Shown here piece after piece: positions 22,534 to 32,222 of a stretch of DNA of 32,395 nt. How positions within the stretch are numbered: position 1 is the stretch's first letter; the number at the start of each line of letters is the position of its first letter. The translations under genes were made by a program, and so were the position numbers. Under the pieces are notes generated by a model. The model was not told the DNA's origin, made no database searches, and worked only from the letters and a program-made list of their open reading frames with translations. This DNA comes from Roseinatronobacter ekhonensis (GTDB taxonomy: Bacteria > Pseudomonadota > Alphaproteobacteria > Rhodobacterales > Rhodobacteraceae), in NCBI RefSeq assembly GCF_900499075.1, contig NZ_UIHC01000039.1, positions 1-32,395 of the forward strand, read 5' to 3'.

Positions 22534-23040
22534 ATGCGCCTGACGACACGAACCAATCTCGCCTTGCGCACCCTGATGGTCTGCGCGGTCAATACCGACC
22601 GTTTGGTGCGCAAACAGGATGTGGCAAAGACGATCAACGCGTCGGAAAACCATCTTGCGCAGGTCATCAACAAACTGGCGCAGGACGGGTTCATCACCAC
22701 GCAGCGCGGGCGGCATGGCGGGTTCAGCCTGAACAAGGCGGCGAGTTCCATTGGCGTGGGCGAGGTGCTGCGCGCCTTCGAGGCCGACCTGCCGCTGATC
22801 GAGTGTTTTTCCGAAACCAACACCTGCCCGCTGAAAGATCATTGCCGCATGGGCACACATCTGAAGCGCGCGGTGGATGCGTTTTACGGGGCGCTGGACG
22901 AGTTGTATCTGTCCGATCTGGTCGACTGCAATTCGGGTCTGGAACGGTTGCTGCAACTGGAAGGGCCACATTTGCCGCAGCAGTGCCAGCCGGGCCACGC
23001 CGCGCGCGCGGCGGCCACGATTGCCCCCGAAGCGGCCTGA
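22534..23040 (+). CDS. Rrf2 family regulator, NsrR-like
   Basis: This 168-residue regulator has an N-terminal winged helix ('MRLTTRTNLALRTLMVCA'; recognition region 'ASENHLAQVINKLAQDGFI', 36-54; wing 'QRGRHGGFSL', 57-66). Three cysteines, C91, C98 and C104 ('ECFSETNTCPLKDHC'), match the Fe-S ligand cluster of NsrR/IscR-type proteins. The spacing is closest to NsrR, a nitric oxide sensor. The C-terminus has an unusual extension of about 25 residues after the family core. It is divergent from sqr and probably controls it, perhaps in response to NO, redox state or reactive sulfur. Its own promoter carries an FNR site. Confidence 0.87.
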   Translation: MRLTTRTNLALRTLMVCAVNTDRLVRKQDVAKTINASENHLAQVINKLAQDGFITTQRGRHGGFSLNKAASSIGVGEVLRAFEADLPLIECFSETNTCPLKDHCRMGTHLKRAVDAFYGALDELYLSDLVDCNSGLERLLQLEGPHLPQQCQPGHAARAAATIAPEAA

Positions 23041-23136
23041 AACGGCCGCTCACGCATCCGTGATGCGACGATCTGAAACTATCTGAACAATGGTGCCGTT
23101 CCCTTCGTGTCTTGGACAAAAAAGGGAAAGACACCG

Positions 23137-23913
23137 ATGAAACAGATGATGATTATCGCCAGCCTGCTGGGCGCCACCGCAGCCGCACCGCTTGCCGCGC
23201 AAACTGCAATCGGGCTTAGCGGCGATCGCACGCTCACCGTGATCGACCTTGGCGCGGGTTCCGTGACCGCATCCCAGGACGTGATGGTCGAGGGCCGCTT
23301 GCTGGGCATTGACTACCGCCCGAACACAGACACGCTGATTGGCGTGACAGAGGCGTTCGAGGTGGTCAATATCGACGCCACCACCGGCATGACAACGCCG
23401 CTTGTGACCATGGAGATGGCTCTGCCCATCGCCGATGGTGCCACCGTGATCGTGGACATCAACCCCGCTGCCGACGCACTGCGCTTCATGTCGGGCACGG
23501 TCAACCATCGTATAAACCTTGGCACCGGCGCCGTCATGGTCGATGGCAGCCTGCATTTCGATGACGGCACGATGGGCGCGCCCATGGTCGGCGGCACCGC
23601 CTATAGCAACTCTTTCGGCAAGCCCGATGCGACGGCGATGTATAACATCGACACGATGCGCCATGCGCTGCTGCGCCAGACAGCCCCGAATGACGGCACA
23701 AACGCCATGATCGGCGAATTGGGCGCAATGGTCGAAGGGCCGGTGGCCTTCGACATCGCAACCGACGCGATGGGCACAAACACCGCATGGCTGTCAGCCA
23801 ATGGCGGGCTGCACACGGTTTCGCTGGACAGCGGCATGGTCACGGAAAGCTGGATGATCGACGGGCTGGACGTGACGCTGCGGGACATGACCGTTATGGC
23901 CGCCGATATGTAA
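23137..23913 (+). CDS. DUF4394-like secreted protein
   Basis: This 258-residue protein begins with a signal peptide ('MKQMMIIASLLGATAAAPLAAQ', cleavage after LAA or AQ). The mature part resembles DUF4394: 'GLSGDRTLTVIDLGAGSV', 'LLGIDYRPNTDTLIGVTEAFEVVNID', 'VDINPAADALRFMSGTVNHRINLGTG' and 'PMVGGTAYSNSF' follow the beta-propeller-like repeat pattern of that family. The function is unknown. The ATG at 23137 follows a GGGAAAG ribosome binding site; the upstream in-frame start would spoil the signal peptide. It lies 96 bp after the Rrf2 gene and ends before a strong terminator. Confidence 0.78.
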   Translation: MKQMMIIASLLGATAAAPLAAQTAIGLSGDRTLTVIDLGAGSVTASQDVMVEGRLLGIDYRPNTDTLIGVTEAFEVVNIDATTGMTTPLVTMEMALPIADGATVIVDINPAADALRFMSGTVNHRINLGTGAVMVDGSLHFDDGTMGAPMVGGTAYSNSFGKPDATAMYNIDTMRHALLRQTAPNDGTNAMIGELGAMVEGPVAFDIATDAMGTNTAWLSANGGLHTVSLDSGMVTESWMIDGLDVTLRDMTVMAADM

Positions 23914-23939: not shown

Positions 23940-23973
23940 CGCGCGCCGGGTCCGATGGCCCGGCGCGCGTTTT
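23940..23973 (+). terminator. Intrinsic terminator after the DUF4394 gene
   Basis: GCGCGCCGGG (23941-23950) pairs perfectly with CCCGGCGCGC (23959-23968) around an 8-base loop, extended by one C-G pair, and is followed by TTTT. It ends the DUF4394 transcript. It also shows that the next gene cannot start at the TTG at 23975 and needs its own promoter. Confidence 0.88.
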
Positions 23974-24043
23974 ATTGCCCTTGATGCAATGCGGGCGGGC
24001 GGCTACCCCTGTAGCTGCCCTATACAATGCCGGACCCATCCCC

Positions 24044-24805
24044 GTGCCAGAGCTTCCGACCCTTCGCCTGTTCGGGCTTGACCTGATCTCTGCCAGCCGC
24101 ACCGACGCGATCCGCGATCTGCTGGCGCGCCCGCACGCACGTGTGGCCTTCGTGAATGCGCATTGTGTGAACGTAGCGGCGCGGGATGACGCGTATCGGC
24201 ACGCGCTGCAAAGCGCCGATATGTTGTTACCCGACGGCGCGGGACTGGAACTGGCGGCCAAACTGCACGGCGTACGGTTTGCGGCCAATCTGAACGGCAC
24301 CGATCTGGGGCCAGAACTGGCGCATGCTCTGGCCGAGGATGGGCATTCGCTATTTCTGCTGGGTGCCGCACCCGGCGTGGCAGAGCGCGCGGGCGCACGC
24401 CTGCAAGAGCTTGCGCCAAAGCTACGCATTGCGGGCACGCGCGACGGGTTCGCGGGCCTGCAAAACCCGCAAGCGGCCATTGACGCCATAAATTCCAGCG
24501 GTGCCGACATGGTCTGGATGGCCACGGGCGTGCCGCATCAAGACCTCTGGCTGGCCGAGCATGCGCATGCGCTGAACGCGCGCCACTTGCTGGGTGTGGG
24601 CGCGTTGCTGGATTTCCTGTCGGGCCGCGTTGCGCGCGCGCCCATCATGCTGCGCCGCGCACGGCTGGAATGGGCGTGGCGGCTGGCGCTGGAACCGCGC
24701 CGCATGTTCGGGCGCTATATTCTGGGCAATGCGGCATTCATTCTGCGCGCACTTGCGCACCGGGTGACGGGTGATCGCTCACAAAACTGTAATCGGAGCG
24801 GGTGA
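24044..24805 (+). CDS. WecG/TagA/CpsF family glycosyltransferase
   Basis: This 253-residue GT26-type transferase adds a sugar (often N-acetyl-mannosamine or its uronate) to a lipid-linked precursor at the cytoplasmic membrane face. 'VAFVNAHCVNVAARDDAYRHA' and 'ADMLLPDGAGLELAAKL' hold the conserved Asn and Asp. 'NLNGTDL' follows where many members have an Arg-containing version, then 'LFLLGAAPGVAERAG'. 'MVWMATGVPHQDLWLAEH' and 'GVGALLDFLSG' complete the core. I prefer the GTG at 24044; an ATG at 23984 would add 20 residues that look unlike the family. It is the first of four genes of a probable polysaccharide locus. Confidence 0.82.
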   Translation: MPELPTLRLFGLDLISASRTDAIRDLLARPHARVAFVNAHCVNVAARDDAYRHALQSADMLLPDGAGLELAAKLHGVRFAANLNGTDLGPELAHALAEDGHSLFLLGAAPGVAERAGARLQELAPKLRIAGTRDGFAGLQNPQAAIDAINSSGADMVWMATGVPHQDLWLAEHAHALNARHLLGVGALLDFLSGRVARAPIMLRRARLEWAWRLALEPRRMFGRYILGNAAFILRALAHRVTGDRSQNCNRSG

Positions 24806-24870
24806 TGATCTTTCCGCAAAATCGCCGCATTCCTAGGGCAGTCAGGGCGCAACCCTGATAGAGAGCAGCT

Positions 24871-25854
24871 ATGCGATTTGACCTGAAACGCCTGTTTGCT
24901 TTGACCGCGCTGCTGGGCCTGTGTGCCCTGACGCTTGGCTATGCCCTGCGCCCGCCTGCCCCGCTGGAGCGGGACGAACGGCTTGCGCATTATACCGCGC
25001 CCCTGCCCAAACCAGACGGCGGTTTTGCCACCTTCTACCTTGGCCACAGCCTGATTGGCCCCGACATTCCCGCCTTTGTCGTGCAACTGGCGCAAGCGGC
25101 GGGAAAACCCGGTGCGCGCTACAACAGCCAGCTTGGATGGGGGGCCAGCCTGCGCACACATTGGCACCCGGACGAGGCGATTCCCGGTCATGAGATGATG
25201 AACCGCCCGCCCGCCTATCGCCCCGCAAAACCGGCGCTGGAAAGCGGCGACTATGACGCGCTGGTAATGACAGAGATGATCAACCTGAAAGACGCGATCC
25301 GCTGGCATGATTCGGGGCACTACACCGCGCTGTGGGCGCAACTCGCACGAAAACATGCACCCGAAATACGGATTTACAAATACGAGACATGGCATTCCTA
25401 CGCAAACTCCGCCGACTGGCTGGCGCGCATTGACCACGATGCAGAGGCGCTTTGGGAGGGCACTATTCTGGCGCAGGCCAAGGCCTACCCGGATGTCGGC
25501 ACGATCCATGTTATTCCCGCAGGGCGCGCAATGGCGGCATTCGCGCGCGAGTTGACCGCGCGCGGCGGCCTGCCGGGAATGCCTGACACAAGTGCGCTGT
25601 TTGCCCTGACCGAGGATGGAACCCGCGACGACATCCACCCAAGCGACAAGGCGGCCTATCTGATTGCGCTGGTCCATTTCGCCACGCTGTACCATGCTGA
25701 CCCGCGCGGCTTGCCACACCGCTTGCAGCGCGCCGATGGCACGCCCGCCGATGCGCCCGCGCCCGAAGTCGCCGCGCTTATGCAGCAGGTCGCGTGGGAC
25801 GTCGTGCGCAATGTCCGCTCGACCGGGCTGGCACAGGCCACAGGGGAAAGCTGA
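24871..25854 (+). CDS. SGNH-hydrolase-like exported protein
   Basis: I do not recognise a named family for this 327-residue protein. It has an N-terminal membrane anchor or signal ('LFALTALLGLCALTLGYAL', 8-26). 'FYLGHSLIG' puts Ser60 in a block I-like place of the SGNH/GDSL fold. 'TRDDIHPSDKAAYL' gives an Asp253-x-x-His256 block V. These support an esterase or acetyl-transfer role on a glycan, but that is inference. The rest ('LVMTEMINLKDAIRWHDSGHY') is unusual. Its stop overlaps the start of the next gene by 1 base. Upstream 65 bp carry no obvious terminator, so it is likely in the same transcript as the WecG-type gene. Confidence 0.7.
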   Translation: MRFDLKRLFALTALLGLCALTLGYALRPPAPLERDERLAHYTAPLPKPDGGFATFYLGHSLIGPDIPAFVVQLAQAAGKPGARYNSQLGWGASLRTHWHPDEAIPGHEMMNRPPAYRPAKPALESGDYDALVMTEMINLKDAIRWHDSGHYTALWAQLARKHAPEIRIYKYETWHSYANSADWLARIDHDAEALWEGTILAQAKAYPDVGTIHVIPAGRAMAAFARELTARGGLPGMPDTSALFALTEDGTRDDIHPSDKAAYLIALVHFATLYHADPRGLPHRLQRADGTPADAPAPEVAALMQQVAWDVVRNVRSTGLAQATGES

Positions 25855-27566
25855 TGCGCGTGTTGGCCGTTCTGATCGCGCTCTGGCTGCCGATGGCGGC
25901 ATTGGCCGAAGGGTTTTTGTCACCTCGCGACGCGGGCGTGCCGCGCTGGCTGGGCATGAACCTGACCGAATTGCGCGACTATCAACCGCAACGCCCGTTC
26001 ATAGACGTGATGAAAAACGCCCGCCCCTGGATTGCACACCGCAACGGCCAATGGGGCGGGTATGAAGAAGCCGACCTGAGGGCTATGGGCGCGCTCGATG
26101 CGCATGGCTGGCCGCGCTTTGTGCCCGAGGATGCCAGCGCGCTGGCCAGCCTGATGCTGGTGGACCTGCACCCCGACGCGGGCGGCGTGGCAGGCAACTA
26201 CCGTGTGACGTGGTCAGGGCGCGCGGATGTGCAGATCACAGGCCGCGTGGGCGGCACGCGGCGGCGCGGCCCGAACGAGATCTGGTTCAGCACCGCGCCC
26301 GGCCCCGGACTGGTGGAACTGCAAGTCTCGGATATCGACGCGGATGATCCGATCCGCGATATTGCCGTCGTGTATCAGCCCCATATCGCGGCCTATGACG
26401 CAGGCGAAATCTTCAATCCCGACTGGTTGGCGCGGGTCGCGGGGATGGCGGTGTTCCGGTTCATGGAATGGCAGGACACCAACCGCACCACCCTGTCGGA
26501 CTGGGCCGACCGCCCGGTGCCGCAGGATTATACCTATACCCGCAACTCTGTCCCGCTAGAGGTCATGATCCGGCTGGCCAACCAGACCGGCACCGAGCCG
26601 TGGTTCAACATCCCGCATCTGGCCACCGATGACTATATCGCTCAGATGGCGCAGGTGATCCGTGACCGCCTGGACCCCGGTTTGCGCGCATGGATCGAAT
26701 TCTCGAATGAGACCTGGAACTGGTCCTTTCCGCAAGCAAACCATGCCCGCGAGCAGGCGCAGGCGCGTTGGGGCGACGGGGATCGCTGGCAGGAATGGAA
26801 CGCCATGCGCGCGGCACAGATGGTGCAGATTTTCGACCGCGTGTTTGACGGGCAGCGCGACCGGCTGGTGCGGGTGCTGGCCACGCAAACCGGCTGGCAC
26901 GGGCTGGAAAACCAACTGCTGGCCCCAAGCTGGCAGGCCGAGACCCCCGCCAACCCCGCGCCGCCGACACTGTTTGATGCCTATGCCATCACCGGCTATT
27001 TCAGCGGGCTTCTGGGCAATGATGAAAAGGTGGACATGACGCGCGGCTGGTTGCGGGATGCAACAGCGCTGGCCGAGGAGGAGGGCCGCGCCCAAGGGCT
27101 GGACGGGGCTGCATTGGCTGAATTCACTCGCGCCCGCGCACATGACATTCTGCGCCCGCGCATGATTGCCGAATTGCGCGATGGCGCCATCAGCGGCGAC
27201 CGCCGCAACACGGTCGCGTCGTTTCTGGACACCGACCTGCCCTACCACCGCGACGTGGCCGACCGCTGGGGGCTGGACCTTGTGGCCTATGAGGGCGGCA
27301 CGCATCTGGTTGGCGTTGGCCCCCATATGGAGGACACGGACCTGACCGCGTTGTTCATTGACGTGAACTATTCGCAGGGCATGGCCGATCTCTACACCTT
27401 GCTGTTGCAAGGCTGGGTCGCGGGTGGGGGCGGGTTATTCGCGCATTTCACCGATATTCGGGCACCGGGGCGCTGGGGCAGCTTTGGCGCATTGCGCCAC
27501 CTGGACGACCACAACCCCCGTTGGGATGCATTGGTCGGGTTCGACCCCGCACAGGTGCAACCATGA
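25854..27566 (+). CDS. Secreted glycoside-hydrolase-like protein
   Basis: This 570-residue exported protein starts with a signal peptide ('MRVLAVLIALWLPMAALA', cleavage about 18/19). An N-terminal beta-rich domain (about 20-180) precedes a barrel-like domain. 'WIEFSNETWNWSFPQ' (280-294) has Glu286 after Asn as in clan A hydrolases (acid/base on strand 4). 'LDLVAYEGGTHLVG' (475-488) offers Glu480 as nucleophile on strand 7. The pair suggests a retaining glycosidase acting on a polysaccharide; the substrate is unknown. The ATG at 25854 overlaps the previous stop and the 3' end overlaps the GT2 gene. A non-catalytic glycan-binding protein is the alternative. Confidence 0.7.
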   Translation: MRVLAVLIALWLPMAALAEGFLSPRDAGVPRWLGMNLTELRDYQPQRPFIDVMKNARPWIAHRNGQWGGYEEADLRAMGALDAHGWPRFVPEDASALASLMLVDLHPDAGGVAGNYRVTWSGRADVQITGRVGGTRRRGPNEIWFSTAPGPGLVELQVSDIDADDPIRDIAVVYQPHIAAYDAGEIFNPDWLARVAGMAVFRFMEWQDTNRTTLSDWADRPVPQDYTYTRNSVPLEVMIRLANQTGTEPWFNIPHLATDDYIAQMAQVIRDRLDPGLRAWIEFSNETWNWSFPQANHAREQAQARWGDGDRWQEWNAMRAAQMVQIFDRVFDGQRDRLVRVLATQTGWHGLENQLLAPSWQAETPANPAPPTLFDAYAITGYFSGLLGNDEKVDMTRGWLRDATALAEEEGRAQGLDGAALAEFTRARAHDILRPRMIAELRDGAISGDRRNTVASFLDTDLPYHRDVADRWGLDLVAYEGGTHLVGVGPHMEDTDLTALFIDVNYSQGMADLYTLLLQGWVAGGGGLFAHFTDIRAPGRWGSFGALRHLDDHNPRWDALVGFDPAQVQP

Positions 27567-28396
27567 GCATCGTCATCTCTATCATCATCCCCGCGAATAA
27601 CGAGGCCCGTTATATCGGCCAATGCCTTGCCGCCTTGCTGGACAGCGACCCGGTGCCGGGCCATGCGCTGGAACTGATTGTGGTGGCCAATGGCTGCACC
27701 GATAACACGGTCAAAGTGGCCGGGCGCTATGACATGCCCGCCCGTGAACGCGGCTGGATGCTGAAGGTGCTGGACCTGCCCGAAGGCTCGAAAATCAAGG
27801 CGCTGAACATGGGCGATATGACAGCGATCGGGCGCTACCGCGTCTATCTGGATGCCGATGTGCGGGTCAGCCCGCCGCTATTGGGCCAGATCATCGCAGA
27901 GCTGAGCACCAACGCCCCCCGATATGCCACTGGCACGCCGCAGATTGCGCGCCCGGAAAGCCGCCTGACACGCGCCTATGCGCGGTTCTGGCAGCGCGTG
28001 CCGTTCAACCAGGGTCAGGCCCCCGGCTTCGGGCTGTTCGCCGTCAACACCAATGGGCGCGCACGTTGGGCAGAGTTCCCCGACGTGATCGCTGATGATA
28101 CCTTCGTGCGGCTGCTCTTCGCGCCGTCAGAACGCGCGCAGGTTGCGGCAAGCTATATCTGGCCAATGGTCGAGGGGCTGGGGCGGCTGGTTCGGGTGCG
28201 GCGCCGTCAGGATGCGGGCACCTCTGAAATCGCGACGCGGTATCCAGAGCTTTTGGAAAACGAGGCCAAGGGCCGCCCGGATATTACCGCGCTGGCCAAG
28301 GCCGATCCGGTGGGGTTTGCGGTCTATGCCTTTGTCGCGGTCATGGTGCGCGCGGGCCGTCCCTTTGCGGGCACGGATTGGTCACGCGGCCGCTAA
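27563..28396 (+). CDS. Glycosyltransferase family 2
   Basis: This 277-residue GT-A fold transferase moves a sugar from a nucleotide sugar to an acceptor. '[20 protein letters not shown]' (6-25) is the GT2 start, '[10 protein letters not shown]' (40-49) binds the nucleotide, 'YLDADV' (95-100) holds the D97-x-D99 metal motif, and '[10 protein letters not shown]' (175-184) holds the likely catalytic Asp pair. There is no QXXRW motif and no multi-helix membrane domain, so it is not a processive synthase. A C-terminal hydrophobic stretch ('[13 protein letters not shown]') could attach it to the membrane. The start overlaps the previous gene (ATGA); the 3' end overlaps convergent trpF by 15 bp. Confidence 0.87.
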
Positions 28397-29038
28397 CCCG
28401 CGCGCCGCTTGCACAAAGCCGACCATGCGCGCGGGGTCTTTCAGCCCCGGCGCGGCTTCGACGCCAGAGGACACATCGACCAGCTGCGCGCCCGTCAAGC
28501 GGATCGCTTCGGCCACGTTGTCAGGCGTCAAGCCGCCGGCCAGCATCCACGGTTTGACCCAGTCCCGCCCCGCGATCAATCGCCAGTCGAAAGACAGGCC
28601 ATTACCGCCGGGTAGCGCCGCGTCCTGCGCCGGTTTCGCATCGACCAGAATCTGGTCCGCCACCGCTTCGAATTGTGCCAGCTTGGGCAGGTCATCCGCA
28701 GTGGCAATGCCAACCGCCTTCATCACCGGAAGGCCGAACCGGGCGTGTATCTCGGCCACGCGGGCGGGCGTTTCAGACCCGTGAAGCTGGATCATATCAA
28801 TCGGCACCTGCGCCAGAATCGCGTCGAGCATCGCATCATCGGCATTGACCACAAGCGCGACCTTGGCCAGCCCGACAGGTGCGGCCAAAGCCAGATCGCG
28901 CGCGGCCTCTAGCGTCAGATTGCGCGGTGATTTCGGGAAAAACACGAACCCCGCGTAGCTGGCCCCGGCCTTTGCGGCATGGTCCAGATCCTGCGCGCGA
29001 GTCAGGCCGCAGATTTTGACGCGCGTATGGGCAGACAT
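28382..29038 (-). CDS. trpF: Phosphoribosylanthranilate isomerase
   Basis: TrpF converts phosphoribosylanthranilate to CdRP in tryptophan synthesis. The 218 residues form a (beta/alpha)8 barrel. The catalytic Cys10 ('VKICGLT') and Asp133 ('ILVDAKP') are present. 'IQLHGSE' (83-89) and '[12 protein letters not shown]' are family blocks, and 'DVSSGVE' binds phosphate at the C-terminus. The ATG at 29038 gives the family N-terminus; the longer open frame reads into lapA. It starts 7 bp after the lapA stop. The ihfB-lapA-trpF order is common in alphaproteobacteria. Confidence 0.96.
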
Positions 29039-29045
29039 TCGTGGG

Positions 29046-29402
29046 TTACTTTGCTTCCAGCACGGCCAGAACGTCATCCTTCTGGGCCGCAGCAGGTGCT
29101 GCTTTTTCCAGCTTGGCCAAATCCGCTTCCAGCGCGTCGACACGGCGGCGCAGGCGCGCGGCTTCGGCGCGGTAGCTATGTTCGCGTAGCCATTCCCAGA
29201 TGAAGCCCAGCATCAGCCCCAGCCCGATAGCCAGCCCCAGCAAGATGAACAGCGGCAAGCCGAAGCCGAAATTGAAGCCGATCAGATTGCCGATGGTTTC
29301 GGGAAACAACTGGACCGCCACAAAGTCGCGGTTCGCAAGCGCGATGGTCGCCAGAACGATCGCGATGATCGCGGACAGGGCGATTCGCAGGTAGGCCATC
29401 AT
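29046..29402 (-). CDS. lapA: LapA domain-containing membrane protein
   Basis: This 118-residue protein has two membrane helices ('[17 protein letters not shown]', 8-24; '[25 protein letters not shown]', 47-71) and a cytoplasmic coiled coil ('[23 protein letters not shown]'). It fits the LapA/YciS (DUF1049) family, which in E. coli works with LapB in controlling lipopolysaccharide synthesis. Two adjacent ATGs are possible (29402, 29399); an AGGAG 9 bp before the first favours it. It lies 6 bp after ihfB in the same operon. Confidence 0.85.
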
Positions 29403-29408
29403 ATCGGT

Positions 29409-29696
29409 TTACTCCTCGATACCGTTGAGCCGGTCGCGCAACAGCTTGCCGGTCTTGAAAAATGGGACGGCCTTTTCGGCCACGTCAACGCTTTCGCCGG
29501 TGCGCGGATTGCGCCCCACGCGGGCATCGCGTTTCTTGACGGAAAACGCGCCAAAGCCGCGCAATTCGACGCGTTCACCGCGCGCCAGCGCTTCGGTAAT
29601 CTCATCAAAAATCGTGGCGACGATGCGTTCGACATCGCGCTGAAACAGATGTGGGTTTTCTTCCGCGATCTTCTGGATCAGTTCCGATCGGATCAT
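29409..29696 (-). CDS. ihfB: Integration host factor subunit beta
   Basis: IHF-beta pairs with IHF-alpha to bend DNA at specific sites in transcription, replication and recombination. The 95 residues are the normal length. '[18 protein letters not shown]' starts the dimerisation helices, '[26 protein letters not shown]' is the DNABII signature with the intercalating Pro64, and '[15 protein letters not shown]' closes. The beta identity rests on the N-terminus and '[22 protein letters not shown]'. The ATG at 29696 is the family start. It is the first gene of ihfB-lapA-trpF. Confidence 0.95.
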
Positions 29697-29751
29697 CCAA
29701 GTTACCCCCGCAAGCCCGCGCATTGGTTGCGCTTTTCAGGTTTGTATAACG

Positions 29752-29800
29752 AAAAGGGCGGGGCAACGCCATAGAAACCGACATTCGCCCCGCCCCCTTT
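29752..29800 (-). terminator. Terminator of the TRAP permease gene
   Basis: AAAGGGCGGGGC (about 29753-29764) can pair with GCCCCGCCCCCTTT (29787-29800) with a small bulge, around a 22-base loop. On the - strand the stem is followed by TTTTCG. It lies just after the TRAP permease stop at 29814 and before ihfB. Confidence 0.65.
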
Positions 29801-29813
29801 GGTGGACCTCCGC

Positions 29814-32222
29814 CTAGAAGGCAGGCTGTGTCTGCCGCCGCCGTTGCAGCAAGATCACCATCCCCAGCAACAACAGCGCCGGAATGTAGAATATTTGCTG
29901 CGGCAGGCGGTCGGCTTCACGGGCAACGCTGACAAGCTGCACTTGCTGATCGGCGTAGAAGTCGAAATCCGCCAGTTTTTCCTGATAGGGCGTTCCGAAC
30001 ATCGGCTCATCCATGGCAACCCCGTCCTCTGACGGCAGCAGGAACAGGCCCGTGCCTTGCAGACGCTGGCCCGGTGGCGTGTCATCCACGTTCAGCACCA
30101 GCGTTGTCGAGCGCGGCTCTCCGGTGTTGAAATCCGGCCCCTCGACATACAGGCGCAGTTCCGCCCCCGGCGCGGCATTGGCCAGCACCTCTTCAAAACG
30201 CTCGCCCGGCAATTCCTCGAACGGCGGCTGGATACGGTCCAGCCAGAAGTTTGGCACAAACAGCGTAAACGCCACCAGAAGCAGCGCCGCTGATTCCCAA
30301 AGTTTGGACCGCGCCAGGAAATAGCCTTGCGTTGCAGCGGCAAACAGCAGCATCGCGAATGTGGCAATGCAGAAGATAAACACCGCCTGCAAAATGCCTG
30401 CCGTGGTCCCAAGGTCCACGCCATACAGGATAAGCGTGGGGTTGTAGATGAACAGGAAGGGCAGCGCGAGCGTGCGCAGGCTGTAGAAGAACGCGGTAAA
30501 GCCGGTCTTGATCGGATCACCGCCCGACACGGCGGCGGCCGCAAAACTGGCCAGCCCCACTGGCGGTGTGACATCGGCCATCAGCCCGAAATAGAACACG
30601 AACAGATGCGCCGCGATCAGGGGCACGATCAGCCCTTCGCTGGCGCCCAGCGTAACCACCACCGTGGCCATGAGCGAGGACACCACGATGTAATTGGCCG
30701 TGGTCGGCAGGCCCAGACCCAGCACGAGCGAGAAGAAGCCCACGAGCACCAGCATCAGGAACAGGTTGCCCATCGACAGCAGTTCCACCAGCCCGGCCAG
30801 TTCGGTGCCGATGGGTGTGCGCGTGACCGTGGCCACGATAATCCCTGCCGCGCCGGTCGCCACGGCAATCCCGATCATGTTGCGAGCGCCCGCGATCATC
30901 CCCTCGATCAGATCGGCCACGCCTGCGCGCATGTGGGACATAAAATCCCCCTCGCCGCGCAGCATGGCCTTTATCGGGCGTTGCGACAGGATGATGAACA
31001 ACATGCTCAGCACCGCGAAATAGGCAGATTTCGACGGCGATTGCCGTTCCACCATCAGGAACCACACAAGGATAACTATGGGCAGCAGGTAATGCAGGCC
31101 GGTCGGAAAGACCTCGTTCATCTTGGGCAGCTTGACCACTTCGGAATTGGGGTCATCCATTTCCAGGTCCTCGCGGCGGCTGGCAACCCACAGGCAGGCC
31201 AGATAGATCACAGCCAATGCGGCCAGAATGATCGGGGCCGACAGCGCGGGCGCGGCGGCACGCAGCCCGTTCACGCCCAGAATGACGCCGTAGAACACCG
31301 CCCCCGCCACGACAAAGCCAAGGGCGACCTTGCCCAGCATGACCAGCAGCGACCCGCCCTTGCCCAGTGCCGGGATGCCGTTGCGCAACGCTTCAAGGTG
31401 GACGATGTAGATCAGCGCGATGTAGGAAATGATCGCGGGGATGAAGGCGTGCTTGATGACCTCTAGATAGGAAATGCCGACAAATTCCACCATCAGGAAC
31501 GCCGCTGCCCCCATCACCGGCGGCATGATCTGGCCGTTGACCGAGGACGACACTTCCACCGCGCCCGCCTTTTCAGAGGTGAACCCCACGCGTTTCATGA
31601 GCGGAATGGTGAAAGTGCCGGTCGTCACCACATTGGCAATGGAAGAGCCGGAAATCAGCCCCGTCGCGCCCGACCCCACCACGGCCGCCTTGGCAGGGCC
31701 GCCGCGCAAATGCCCCAGCCCGGCAAATGCAAGCTGAATGAAATAATTGCCCGCGCCCGCCTTGTCCAAAAGCGCGCCGAACAGCACGAACAGGAACACA
31801 AAGGCCGTGGACACACCCAAGGGGATGCCGAACACCCCTTCGGTCGACAGCCATTGCGTGTTGATGATGGCATCGAAAGAGCGGCCTTCATGCGCGATCA
31901 GGTCGGGGATCAACCAGCCGGTGCCGAAATAACTATAGGCCAGAAAAATGCTGCCGACGATGGTCAGCGCGGGGCCAAGCGCGCGGCGCGCGGCCTCCAA
32001 CATCAGCACAAGGCCGACCACACCGACCCAGATTTGCGTTTGCGTCGGCAAACCTTCGCGGGCCGATCCAGAAATCTCGCGCGAGAACCAGAACACATAG
32101 AACGCGCAGCCTGCTGCGACGATCGCCATGGCCCAGTCCAGAATAGGGATATGCTTGCGCGGCGATTTCTTGAACGCCGGATAGGCCAGAAAGGCCAGAA
32201 ACAGCGCAAACGCCAGATGCAT
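29814..32222 (-). CDS. TRAP transporter fused permease (TAXI type), 5'-truncated by an IS
   Basis: TRAP fused permeases import organic acids or amino acids with an ion gradient and a periplasmic TAXI-type receptor. The 802 residues read here contain a DctQ-like part, then the DctM part with 'ATGLISGSSIANVVTTGTF', 'SSVNGQIMPPVMGAAAFLM' and 'LGLGLPTTANYIV'. A C-terminal DUF3394-like domain and a last helix follow. The frame stays open upstream of the ATG at 32222 with family-like residues ('VIGSDQTRPMHLAFALF') up to about 32273, where IS-like sequence begins. The true N-terminal helices are therefore missing. Translation from Met 32222 is possible, but the product is probably defective. Confidence 0.85.
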   Translation of the reverse strand: MHLAFALFLAFLAYPAFKKSPRKHIPILDWAMAIVAAGCAFYVFWFSREISGSAREGLPTQTQIWVGVVGLVLMLEAARRALGPALTIVGSIFLAYSYFGTGWLIPDLIAHEGRSFDAIINTQWLSTEGVFGIPLGVSTAFVFLFVLFGALLDKAGAGNYFIQLAFAGLGHLRGGPAKAAVVGSGATGLISGSSIANVVTTGTFTIPLMKRVGFTSEKAGAVEVSSSVNGQIMPPVMGAAAFLMVEFVGISYLEVIKHAFIPAIISYIALIYIVHLEALRNGIPALGKGGSLLVMLGKVALGFVVAGAVFYGVILGVNGLRAAAPALSAPIILAALAVIYLACLWVASRREDLEMDDPNSEVVKLPKMNEVFPTGLHYLLPIVILVWFLMVERQSPSKSAYFAVLSMLFIILSQRPIKAMLRGEGDFMSHMRAGVADLIEGMIAGARNMIGIAVATGAAGIIVATVTRTPIGTELAGLVELLSMGNLFLMLVLVGFFSLVLGLGLPTTANYIVVSSLMATVVVTLGASEGLIVPLIAAHLFVFYFGLMADVTPPVGLASFAAAAVSGGDPIKTGFTAFFYSLRTLALPFLFIYNPTLILYGVDLGTTAGILQAVFIFCIATFAMLLFAAATQGYFLARSKLWESAALLLVAFTLFVPNFWLDRIQPPFEELPGERFEEVLANAAPGAELRLYVEGPDFNTGEPRSTTLVLNVDDTPPGQRLQGTGLFLLPSEDGVAMDEPMFGTPYQEKLADFDFYADQQVQLVSVAREADRLPQQIFYIPALLLLGMVILLQRRRQTQPAF

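Follow-up and report, generated by a model that had tools for sequence, protein, structure and literature searches.

Three genes of a glycan locus in Roseinatronobacter ekhonensis as a probable detached arm of a conserved PKS/NRPS-linked exopolysaccharide pathway

A four-gene locus with glycan-related products

We analysed a compact four-gene locus (g1 to g4) of Roseinatronobacter ekhonensis, and present evidence that g2-g4 probably belong to an exopolysaccharide pathway built around a polyketide synthase (PKS) and a nonribosomal peptide synthetase (NRPS)-like enzyme encoded elsewhere in the genome (internal genome label G000). The sequence analysed, referred to here as the window, comprises contig C67 in full (32,395 nucleotides). 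An original prediction, made from the sequence alone, had described g1-g4 as a small pathway that makes, decorates and trims a surface or extracellular polysaccharide. We confirmed that the four open reading frames (ORFs) are real and lie where they had been described; the ORF coordinates agree with the predicted order, strand, and overlaps or contacts of the last three genes. The features are as follows.

23940..23969, between the DUF4394 gene and g1: terminator-like hairpin with an 11-pair G+C stem and an 8-base loop
24044..24805 (alternative TTG start at 23975), + strand: g1, WecG/TagA/CpsF (GT26-type) glycosyltransferase, from PF03808
24871..25854, + strand: g2, probably a membrane-anchored SGNH-like exported esterase or acyltransferase, from conserved residues
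25854..27566, + strand: g3, secreted clan-A glycoside-hydrolase-like protein, from its predicted fold and conserved glutamates
27563..28396, + strand: g4, glycosyltransferase family 2 (GT2) enzyme, from PF00535

The g2 and g3 genes overlap by one base (TGATG) and g3 and g4 by four bases (ATGA), and a gap of 65 bases separates g1 from g2. Both other genomes of the genus in which both flanks are present, Roseibaca domitiana (L002) and G134 (stretch L015), carry g1-g4 adjacent to one another with flanking families in common. Since the ratio of nonsynonymous to synonymous substitution rates (dN/dS) within the genus was 0.12-0.26 in 10/10 pairs (one pair only for g1), the four genes are, by this sequence measure, under purifying selection within the genus.

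The hairpin before g1 had been called a strong terminator. Its stem is present and is the longest among the five terminator-like sites of the region; the number of such sites is not above chance (mean 3.6, standard deviation 1.8). The terminator scan places this hairpin on the - strand, and the + strand read by eye also ends in TTTTATT. No sigma-70-like site was found on the + strand of the region, and the one site on the - strand equals the chance mean. Genes for an Rrf2-type regulator and a DUF4394 protein lie directly upstream of g1 (22534-23913), and L004/L015 and L005 likewise have a DUF4394-family gene upstream of the locus. Downstream, the genes scanned include three on the - strand: trpF and those for a LapA-domain protein and a TRAP transporter.

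Assignment of the four gene products

The two transferase assignments were borne out by profile searches. By profile, g1 belongs to the GT26 WecG/TagA/CpsF family: scanned from the TTG at 23975, it matched PF03808 with 177.9 bits (cut-off 27.4, E 1.9e-52) and TIGR00696 with 118.1 bits (cut-off 69), and the equivalog models were all far below their cut-offs. The reaction that characterises this family is the transfer of an N-acetylmannosamine-type sugar onto an acceptor linked to undecaprenyl. The g4 product matched PF00535 with 64.3 bits (cut-off 23.3, E 1.7e-17).

The SGNH/GDSL superfamily is marked by a nucleophile serine near the N terminus and a DxxH motif near the C terminus. In g2 we found GHS60LxG and D253xxH256, in which S60, D253 and H256 are invariant in 12/12 sequences, in keeping with the SGNH-like motifs predicted for this protein. 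There was no Pfam or NCBIfam match to g2 at E <= 0.1, nor any Pfam match at E <= 5. Weak profile matches were obtained from members of its family, to DUF4886 in 5/12 (best 8e-4) and to Lipase_GDSL_3 in 2/12 (best 0.16). Read by eye, the protein begins with a hydrophobic stretch in which no cleavage site is obvious. Structure prediction from a 4-sequence alignment gave a predicted local distance difference test score (pLDDT) of 38.3, and a search of solved-structure sequences returned chance-level rows only. These sequence features indicate that g2 is probably a membrane-anchored, SGNH-like exported esterase or acyltransferase.

The g3 protein matched nothing in Pfam, NCBIfam or the PDB sequences at E <= 0.1 (best PDB value 0.15), and no glycoside hydrolase (GH) family appeared among the Pfam matches of 22 g3-family members. 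Its start resembles a signal peptide ending ALA-E (read by eye). The predicted structure is a (beta/alpha)8 barrel of clan A, matching the hydrolase-like fold that had been proposed. N285 and E286 follow the strand at 279-283 and E480 lies within the strand at 475-483 (their numbering as strands 4 and 7 is our own assignment), and all are invariant in 22/22 sequences. From this model and the alignment, E286 (in SNE) is likely to be the acid/base and E480 (in YEGG) the nucleophile. We did not assign g3 to a single GH family: GH51 ranks first by VIA, and many of the Foldseek entries are GH10.

Domain architecture varies among g3 relatives. The g3 protein of the window lacks the N-terminal g2-like domain that many relatives have. 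The relatives in L028 and L033, whose genomes (G138 and G041) contain the NRPS but gave no separate g2 match, carry a different N-terminal domain that opens with a GNSL motif and possibly replaces g2; this domain is also found on the relative in L034, though its genome (G005) has g2. On a Paracoccus marcusii plasmid (L038 15459-22367), a very large protein annotated as a family 16 glycosylhydrolase contains g3-like and g2-like stretches. C-terminal RTX calcium-binding repeats are present on g3 relatives in L029 (3733-7290), L030 (3204-5444; match just below the curated cut-off) and L031 (1831-3972). On environmental IMG/VR contigs labelled viral, g3 relatives occur at 36 distinct loci (L055-L090), of which L056 and L060 share a 285-kb contig; zero g2 relatives were found in the viral-contig scan. 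Because 0/36 of the stored flanks carry a match to any other cluster query, these loci say nothing about function.

The last three genes form the tail of a larger cluster in relatives

We fetched 20 stretches (L015-L034) around g3 as bait, and searched them with the proteins of the window and of C181, a second contig of the same genome. In many relatives the order is type I PKS, GT2, NRPS, phosphopantetheinyl transferase (PPTase), g2, g3, g4, with genes for Wzx, Wzz, a tyrosine-kinase-like protein and an initiating transferase alongside. By Pfam, the PKS contains ketosynthase (KS), acyltransferase (AT), ketoreductase (KR), dehydratase (DH), acyl carrier protein (ACP) and thioesterase (TE) domains, and no enoylreductase (ER) family was found. 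The NRPS-like protein comprises a formyltransferase, an adenylation domain (A) split by a luciferase-like monooxygenase (LLM), and a carrier domain. Other cluster proteins were identified by Pfam as PPTase, GT2, GT4, Wzx-type flippase, initiating sugar transferase and, below threshold, Wzy-like.

The NRPS was present in 12/20 stretches, and g2, g3 and g4 all matched in 11 of these 12 (g3 is cut in L024). The full set of initiating transferase (Bac_transf), kinase-like, Wzz, Wzx, g4, g3, g2, PPTase, NRPS and GT2 genes was found in L020, L021, L023 and L032; in all of these but L023, the Bac_transf, kinase-like and Wzz genes are on the other strand. L026 has this set minus a Wzx match, and the set is incomplete, truncated or reordered in L016-L019, L022, L024 and L034. 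In several loci g2 lies 3' of the NRPS and PPTase genes with overlapping or touching ends. As judged from gene neighbourhoods, g2-g4 are the tail of a larger conserved cluster around the PKS and the NRPS-like enzyme. The surface-glycan theme of the original prediction was upheld, and its small self-contained pathway was not.

The PKS/NRPS core and candidate assembly genes lie elsewhere in the genome

The window had been noted to lack a flippase, a polymerase and an initiating transferase, and so to depend on other loci or make a short glycan. We located candidates for all three. C181 (136 kb) carries the PKS, GT2, NRPS and PPTase core, intact and adjacent, behind kinase-, Wzz- and Wzy-like genes.

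C181 21543-22430, + strand: kinase-like (BY-kinase-like) gene
C181 22449-23810, + strand: Wzz (PF02706, 29.4 bits, above cut-off)
C181 23824-25326, + strand: Wzy-like (Wzy_C, 21.8 bits, cut-off 31.7)
C181 within 24960-31661, + strand: PKS, start probably after the Wzy-like gene
C181 31637-32644, + strand: GT2
C181 32654-37183, + strand: NRPS
C181 37180-37881, + strand: PPTase

The C181 PKS has the KS cysteine and AT serine motifs as well as those of the carrier and thioesterase domains. A Wzx-like flippase is encoded on C114 (PF13440, 161.8 bits, above cut-off; 49% identity to a cluster Wzx) and an initiating transferase on C102 (PF02397, 178.8 bits, above cut-off; 48% to its cluster counterpart). 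The Wzz and kinase-like proteins of C181 also match XrtA-type models, below cut-off. Since the NRPS lies off the g1-g4 contig in both examinable genomes of the genus, both keep the two parts of the cluster, split.

The cluster genes co-occur across the order

We scanned 196 genomes of the order, taking TIGR04020 at E <= 1e-80 as the NRPS and using thresholds of E <= 1e-3 for g2 and E <= 1e-20 for g4. The NRPS was found in 85 genomes (once in each), g3 in 82, g2 in 59 and g4 in 91. It was present in 59/59 genomes with g2, 72/82 with g3 and 81/91 with g4. Among the 56 genomes with a strong g2 match, the ratio with and without the NRPS was 56/0, compared with 29/111 in the rest (p 8e-28), and at the genus level 26/26 g2 genera fall among the 38 NRPS genera of 87 (p 2.6e-13); these genomes are related by descent, and the p-values overstate their independence. 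Strong g2 and the NRPS shared a contig in 53/56 genomes and lay within 5 kb of each other in 49/56, and g4 lay at most 5 kb from g3 in 64/74 genomes having both. This established the association of g2-g4 with the PKS/NRPS cluster.

Related clusters on plasmids

Outside the order, Shinella, Aminobacter, Rhizobium and Neorhizobium have plasmids that carry both PKS and NRPS relatives. In Shinella zoogloeoides the pair is accompanied by genes for a PPTase, WecB/TagA/CpsF, a polyprenyl glycosylphosphotransferase, polysaccharide export, a flippase, an O-antigen ligase and a g3 relative, and in Aminobacter by genes for a PPTase, flippase, export, O-antigen ligase and a GH9 protein. Shinella sp. PSBB067 and Neorhizobium sp. 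SOG26 encode weak g2 relatives, ~20 kb and ~27 kb away from their NRPS genes. On a plasmid of Ruegeria sp. SCSIO 43209 (L097 15842-20870), a gene for a VPLPA-CTERM exosortase, XrtD, lies ~2.6 kb from g2, and the PKS/NRPS pair is on the same plasmid.

The place of g1

Under the original prediction, separation of the four genes in relatives would have counted against a unit. The neighbourhood was kept for g2-g4 but not for g1 outside the genus, where its close relatives showed no linkage to g2-g4 (smallest g1-g4 distance 16.5 kb). As a control for the co-occurrence analysis, genomes with close g1 relatives carried the NRPS in 17/31 cases, compared with 68/165 of the others (p 0.17). Both g1 relatives scanned for domains (2/2) were WecG and Bac_transf fusions. 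Seventeen genomes had weaker-only WecG-type matches, and in five of these (G006, G068, G092, G098 and G163) the match lay within 30 kb of g4, which weighs against a simple reading of g1 as foreign. WecB/TagA/CpsF genes are annotated in 4/6 plasmid-borne clusters viewed; three of the four have ~30% identity to g1 and the Shinella one is without a match at 1e-8. These comparisons suggest that a WecG-type transferase recurs near the clusters, but that g1's own subfamily does not.

If g1-g4 were instead a compact, stand-alone unit that decorates and trims a glycan, as first envisaged, then their adjacency in R. domitiana and G134 and the purifying selection acting on them would fit. However, outside the genus g1's close relatives lie apart from g2-g4 and show no association with the cluster, and g2-g4 are tied to the PKS/NRPS cluster. 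We rejected a stand-alone four-gene pathway on the first of these grounds, and consider it very improbable.

Proposed pathway and alternative explanations

We propose that g2-g4 are the detached exported and assembly arm of a conserved PKS/NRPS-linked exopolysaccharide pathway with its core on C181, and that g1 is a genus-level addition to them. We assign this explanation as a whole a probability of about 0.68; pathway membership of g2-g4 is its best-supported claim. Several observations weigh against it. In this genome and in G134, g2-g4 and the PKS/NRPS core are on different contigs. The DH motif searched for is absent from the DH region of the C181 PKS, the Wzy-like protein of C181 scores below the Pfam cut-off, and the structural model of g2 is of low confidence (pLDDT 38). 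The NRPS was unmatched in 8/20 of the g3-centred stretches (L015, L025, L027-L031 and L033, some of them cut), and four of these eight (L025, L028, L031 and L033) do contain the PKS. Across the order, 29/85 NRPS genomes are without a strong g2 match (26 without any), 13 without g3 and 4 without g4, and g3 and g4 were each found in 10 NRPS-free genomes. Among the plasmids, g2-g4 are all unmatched at 1e-8 in the Aminobacter stretch, g3 is far from the NRPS in two Rhizobium records, g2 and the NRPS are on one record in 5/14 cases, and a 41-kb stretch of P. aminovorans carries g2 with no PKS within those 41 kb.

In the proposed pathway, the initiating sugar transferase on C102 and g1 would start an undecaprenyl-linked oligosaccharide, which g4 and other glycosyltransferases would extend. 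The Wzx on C114 would flip this oligosaccharide, the Wzy-like protein would polymerise it and Wzz would control the polymerisation. The NRPS may load, formylate and oxidise an aminoacyl group, to be extended by the PKS, with the resulting acyl group joined to the glycan. Facing the periplasm, g2 could then transfer or remove an acyl ester, and g3 could cut or trim the polymer outside the cytoplasm. Because the exported SGNH-like g2 was found only where the PKS/NRPS exists, the sequence data suggest that the acyl product leaves the cytoplasm. The acyl-decoration chemistry is drawn from domain content and from this strict dependence of g2 on the NRPS. We tentatively suggest, as one possibility, that the product of the orphan cluster, which roseobacters and some Hyphomicrobiales share, is a formylated, oxidised aminoacyl-polyketide group covalently attached in the exported polysaccharide to form a polyketide-peptide-polysaccharide hybrid, rather than a free metabolite, with g2 its dedicated extracytoplasmic acyl handler and g3 a glycosidase.

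Two other fates of the product were considered. A role in forming a lipid anchor or end-group has been proposed for the PKSs of RkpA-type capsule clusters, and here too the PKS/NRPS might make a lipid anchor or carrier end-group of the polysaccharide in place of a side-chain, in which case g2 would process the anchor. WcbR/RkpA type I PKS genes are found in capsule clusters of rhizobia and Burkholderia, which favours this arrangement, but an NRPS with formyltransferase and LLM domains is not named for wcb/rkp in the accessible part of the source (PMC3908369). Furthermore, KR and DH without an ER family do not alone suggest a long saturated lipid, and we regard the lipid anchor as doubtful.

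The PKS/NRPS might also produce a free, possibly glycosylated secondary metabolite, with the exopolysaccharide genes its neighbours through shared regulation or a common island, and with g2-g4 serving the polysaccharide only. The accessible text of the papers that describe the cluster catalogues it as a secondary-metabolite PKS/NRPS (PMC4337385, PMC5014874), TIGR04020-type proteins are also found on Streptomyces and Nostoc plasmids, and the NRPS-free occurrences of g3 and g4 fit this explanation. However, g2 was never found without the NRPS in the 196 genomes, several loci place it 3' of the NRPS and PPTase genes with ends that touch or overlap, and Shinella and Aminobacter, both Hyphomicrobiales, repeat the association with polysaccharide genes. 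A free metabolite thus appears unlikely.

If the PKS/NRPS-linked exopolysaccharide pathway is as we propose, a polyketide/peptide substituent or anchor joins the known exopolysaccharide chemistry of widespread marine bacteria. This gives a first testable idea of the product of a long-known orphan cluster, and directs the search for the roseobacter PKS/NRPS product to the cell surface and matrix instead of culture extracts.

Comparison with known systems

Wzx/Wzy-dependent exopolysaccharide pathways with exported SGNH acyltransferases or hydrolases include the AlgJ/AlgX, WssI and PslG types. The features in common with the genes described here are an initiating transferase, a flippase, Wzy-like and Wzz proteins, an exported SGNH-like protein and a clan-A glycosidase-like protein. 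They differ in that the acyl source here would be the PKS/NRPS.

The wcb/rkp capsule clusters (WcbR/RkpA) likewise have a type I PKS inside a surface-polysaccharide cluster, a likeness drawn from their description only; the accessible part of that description makes no mention of a formyltransferase-A-LLM-peptidyl carrier protein (PCP) NRPS, a PPTase, g2 or g3 (PMC3908369).

The original prediction did not recognise the gene set as a described system; the core of the larger cluster has been described. A roseobacter cluster of four genes, encoding a PKS, a glycosyltransferase, an NRPS and a PPTase, is reported in 28/57 genomes, with its product unknown at publication (PMC4337385, PMC5014874), and the PKS/NRPS cluster is reported to be well conserved among roseobacters, with an uncharacterised product (PMC4337385). 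As far as the accessible parts of these papers show, the C181 core has the same four gene types, a match of composition and not of sequence. There the cluster is presented as four genes of secondary metabolism, whereas here it continues into g2-g4 and Wzx, Wzz, Wzy-like and sugar-transferase genes, with g2-g4 standing apart from the core in this genus. No link between the roseobacter PKS/NRPS cluster and glycan genes was found in the open-access literature, most subscription papers being outside the search. The four-gene orphan core and type I PKSs in capsule clusters were thus already known, and the extension of this core to g2-g4 and the polysaccharide machinery is apparently new.

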